A stretch of DNA of 64,000 nt, from positions 1 to 64,000 of the forward strand of contig JANXBN010000001.1 in NCBI GenBank assembly GCA_025060635.1, read 5' to 3'. Every line of letters starts with the position of its first letter. The first letter of the stretch is position 1. This DNA is from Candidatus Kryptonium sp. Its GTDB lineage: Bacteria; Bacteroidota; Ignavibacteria; Kryptoniales; Kryptoniaceae. A model generated the notes under the pieces. It did no database searches. It was not told the DNA's origin and worked only from the letters and a program-made list of their open reading frames with translations. The position numbers and the translations under genes are program-made. This document shows, piece after piece, positions 1 to 325 of this stretch.

Positions 1-313
<313 letters not shown>

Positions 314-325
<12 letters not shown>

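Follow-up and report, generated by a model that had tools for sequence, protein, structure and literature searches.

In the central pseudoknot of the 16S rRNA of this genome, very probably a Candidatus Kryptonia, helix 2 has G18-C917 where C18-G917 is canonical, with G19-C916 next to it; the changes are complementary on both strands, and the outer pairs U17-A918 and U20-A915 are retained. This swap is a rare, real and compensated variant and not a new system; the helix, its pairing geometry and its two flanking pairs are those of canonical helix 2 (17-19/916-918).

The window, a stretch of 64,000 nt that starts at base 1 of a 922-kb contig (G000:C1), contains the first 310 positions of a 16S rRNA gene on its minus strand (1..325; Rfam RF00177, 251.4 bits, model 1-310), the 3' side of the gene being truncated by the contig start. 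Window bases 308 and 307 correspond to E. coli positions 18 and 19, and both are G in the RNA, whereas the consensus has C18 and A or C19. A sequence-only reading had claimed these two Gs within the 27F primer site, and they are indeed present on the minus strand of 299..318 (AGAGTTTGATGGTGGCTCAG), a site that has two central mismatches to 27F and departs from the Rfam bacterial SSU consensus only at positions 18 and 19. Helix 1 (9-13/21-25) is intact, being paired in the Rfam SSU model alignment of the fragment.

Given G at both positions, the same reading predicted C at 917 and C or U at 916, and proposed to look for them in the rest of the gene, left of the window. The contig ends there, but the 3' part of the gene was located at the end of another contig (C9), where two tRNA genes and then 23S and 5S come after it; searching the genome gave no 16S piece besides these two. 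It reads AAACTCAAACCAATTGACGG on the minus strand within G000:C9:59022-59045 (surrounding stretch, GAAACTCAAACCAATTGACGGGG), which supplies C916 and C917 as predicted and not a standard 916-918 devoid of compensation, the outcome that had been named as contrary to the idea. C9 is the only source of these two bases in Kryptonia, in that the counterpart in a second genome of the genus is masked and no other available Kryptonia genome has a readable site.

Across the two contigs, UGGU pairs with ACCA (U17-A918, G18-C917, G19-C916, U20-A915), so that complementarity between 17-20 and 915-918 is complete with G18-C917 in place of the canonical C18-G917. Nearest-neighbour energies of the four-pair duplexes are -2.7 kcal/mol for UCCU/AGGA and -2.5 kcal/mol for UGGU/ACCA, as against +4.9 kcal/mol for either half-change. 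Experiments in E. coli have shown that the two strands of helix 2 must be complementary (Brink 1993 and Poot 1998, cited by PMC5329695); three combinations at 19/916 are functional there (19A-916U, 19C-916G and 19A-916G), and 19C-916U is defective (PMC5329695). Covariation of 19 with 916 has already been reported for this helix (PMC5329695); known natural versions keep C18-G917 with A or C at 19, whereas Kryptonia has the opposite orientation at 18-917 and a G-C pair at 19-916. It is highly probable, judging from sequence, that the window and C9 pieces belong to one real and functional 16S rRNA of Ca. Kryptonia that carries a compensated swap.

The assignment to Ca. Kryptonia, which had been guessed from the primer site, is very probably correct because the Kryp56 FISH probe, as given in PMC4737851, matches the plus strand exactly at 253..270 (CCGTGTCCCTGACTTGCA). 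GG at 18/19 is likewise found in a second member genome of the genus (G065, on a 385-kb contig), whose 5' fragment is 92.5% identical, and the GG is not a one-off read error. The string GAGTTTGATGNTGGCTCAG is absent from the 395 sampled genomes of the phylum other than this one, a set that includes genomes without an assembled 16S. A further genome of the genus (G085) contains a full-length 16S gene with the normal C18/G917 (L034, G085:C8:130910-132423); this gene shares only 75% identity with the Kryptonia pieces, appears to be a contaminant from another phylum and was excluded from Kryptonia.

No full-length contiguous 16S gene is present in the assembly: the gene lies on two contigs, and its middle is missing or chimaeric. 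The split is most likely an assembly fault and is not evidence for a broken gene. Within C9, 365 nt (G000:C9:59081-59445; L002, approximately E. coli 508-866) show 100% identity to the 16S gene in a genome from a different family of the same class (G041), which has GG at 916/917, and in the flanks of this stretch identity drops to 72-90%. The sequence ceases to follow G041 at about position 867, and the CC site lies 40-60 nt past the junction. The last ~108 nt of the contig (C9:59499-59606), joined to the 16S near position 430, contain no recognisable 16S, match no Rfam family and are absent from all other genomes of the genus, and they represent either an assembly error or extra sequence inserted into the gene. 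Most likely, the 5' end of the C9 piece is a mosaic produced by assembly. Such a chimaeric 16S would mislead V4-based identification or phylogeny, and because the stretch bearing the 515F/806R sites is chimaeric, the fits of these primers (no mismatch) were discarded. In its V6 region and its 3' third, the C9 piece is nearest to order-mates (90% identity to L028), and the G+C content of protein-coding DNA is 0.363 on C9 versus 0.373 in the window.

Since the C9 16S is demonstrably chimaeric elsewhere, and mis-assembly is frequent for single-copy rRNA genes in metagenomes, it could be supposed that the true gene has C18/C19 with G916/G917 and that an assembly or consensus error has altered it. 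We consider this extremely unlikely: the changes are complementary on two separate contigs, the GG recurs in the second genome, and the published primer failure (PMC4737851, PMC9039060) agrees with the swap. Alternatively, the GG may be real and the CC may come from an Armatimonadota-like read that entered C9 through chimaeric assembly, with Kryptonia compensating in some other manner or not at all. The identical GG/CC of an Armatimonadota order would provide the source, and a mosaic could in principle hold a second, undetected junction. However, the tip of helix 27 that adjoins the CC (TATACCCGCAAGGGTG) matches neither Armatimonadota nor the class and occurs in no other locus compared; moreover, leaving G18/G917 and G19/G916 uncompensated would destabilize helix 2, whose complementarity is required in E. 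coli, by ~7 kcal/mol. An imported CC is therefore improbable in the extreme, though a shade less so than an outright error, and the CC at 916/917, as read from the sequence, is very likely Kryptonia's own.

To our knowledge, C18-G917 is near-invariant in all three domains, and comparison of sequences has therefore had little power to prove this base pair. Because all of the ~38 distinct 16S genes of the class that are readable at both sites, 5 order-mates included, have C18-G917 and C19-G916, the change, which amounts to four transversions, most likely occurred on the Kryptonia branch. When 84,980 species genomes were scanned for AAACTYAAANCAATTGACGG, 14 hits emerged, 7 of which are in true SSU genes; the other 7 of these genome-contig hits, together with all ten hits on viral contigs, were rejected as lying outside rRNA on the basis of Rfam matches and sequence context. 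Later genome searches added one Armatimonadota (from the same order as SKYB36) and two Heimdallarchaeota. In total, 917C was found in 11 SSU genes including that of this genome, one of them uncompensated, and these counts are lower bounds since exact flanks were required, many genomes are without a 16S, and records near this genome were possibly omitted. Among the 64 genomes with both sites read, 10 of the 11 that carry 917C have 18G, and each of the ~53 that carry 917G has 18C (Fisher p ~1e-10, a value that ignores shared ancestry and for which this genome was read across two contigs).

The covariation at 18/917 extends over at least five lineages in two domains, and flips of 18-917 with their partner on this scale constitute natural covariation evidence for the pair; the flipped helices are also ready-made test sequences. 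Positions 19 and 916 covary as well (G-C, U-A, C-G and A-U). Within the flipped set, 19-916 is G-C in Kryptonia and the Armatimonadota order, C-G in Armatimonadota CG06 and the Heimdallarchaeota, U-A in the proteobacterium CoA8_C15.2 and a C/A mismatch in the micrarchaeon YP4.bin78, such that the last four share G18-C917 with Kryptonia but differ from it at 19-916. Four Heimdallarchaeota (L088, L089, L055, L059) have G18-C917 with C19-G916, other members of the sampled class have C18-G917, and the flip falls within a single archaeal class. The lone exception to the covariation, a Methylicorpusculum MAG (L056), has C18 A19 with A916 C917, both helix 2 pairs being broken, and is suspected to reflect a chimaera or consensus error.

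The Armatimonadota order of SKYB36 (G102, G167) has exactly the Kryptonia combination, G18-C917 with G19-C916, although it belongs to an unrelated phylum; the same four bases occur in 2/2 readable genomes of its class (five genomes, one order). If the GG/CC helix had moved between co-resident hot-spring Kryptonia and Armatimonadota by recombination of a 16S segment, the identity of the four bases would be accounted for, as would a near-identical stretch just downstream of 27F (GGGCGAACGCT). Co-occurrence of Kryptonia with an Armatimonadetes lineage is described in PMC4737851, and holding Kryptonia together with the two Armatimonadota is not rejected for the 3' part of the gene (AU p 0.151). 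The 5' part, however, rejects the same grouping (AU p 0.0019, from a short and poorly resolved alignment), the window fragment shares no exact match of more than 41 nt with Armatimonadota, the longest one lying in conserved sequence, and 16S identity to this genome is 76-78% for the Armatimonadota as against 80-86% for class relatives, the latter range being inflated by the chimaeric part of C9. In a tree of the 3' part without the four columns, the shortest path from Kryptonia leads to its order-mates, with a weakly resolved fork. We regard transfer as a most improbable event; an independent origin of GG/CC in the two groups is the better reading, though not a proved one.

Because the 27F and 907-926 sites contain the two partners of one helix, they are spoiled together: the swap creates two mismatches each to 27F, 907R, 926R and 926wF, which bears out the expectation that the 907/926 site would be broken. 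Lineages with the 18-917 flip would tend to escape both primer families at once. The sequence-only reading had also connected the swap to a lineage that PCR misses, and the mismatches agree with the PCR blindness published for hot-spring Armatimonadetes and for Kryptonia. The latter is a lineage of hot, pH-neutral springs, the same one as here by the Kryp56 match, and primer mismatch has already been named as the cause of its invisibility (PMC4737851, PMC9039060). At Dewar Creek, 100% of Kryptonia and 92% of Armatimonadetes escaped a V6-V8 amplicon set (PMC9039060), and 926wF is a V6-V8 forward primer (PMC4737851). If, as we hypothesize, the Dewar Creek Armatimonadetes belong to the flipped order, its swap, together with that of Kryptonia, suggests a single explanation for two of the blind spots known from that site. 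In the main texts of the open-licence papers searched, we found neither an account of these mismatches in terms of a swapped and compensated pseudoknot helix nor a list of other flipped lineages.

With helix 2 forming as usual, the subunit would be expected to assemble and initiate normally, and the swap would be a compensated replacement, neutral or almost so, that became fixed a single time on the stem of Kryptonia, with lost priming by the 27F and 907-926 primers as its visible effect. Because the half-changes are strongly unfavourable, the route would have involved either the crossing of a deleterious intermediate or a near-simultaneous double change. An advantage in heat stability over CC/GG relatives was rejected, since the two orientations are nearly equal in duplex energy and thus imply no heat adaptation relative to these relatives. 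We consider it very unlikely that the reversed 18-917, instead of being neutral, has been selected in a number of lineages, thermal and archaeal, through a shared assembly factor, ribosomal protein, toxin or inhibitor that reads helix 2. Were selection the correct reading, the rare flip would mark a changed partner of the central pseudoknot.

Immediately upstream of the 16S 5' end, window positions 311-350 form a strong hairpin (GTTGTAAATTTTATTTACAAC, -20 kcal/mol), which is lengthened by pairing with GGAGAG of the 16S. The repeat of this hairpin is also present in the second genome of the genus (G065), and the hairpin may serve as a leader element, keeping the 16S 5' end in place during maturation.
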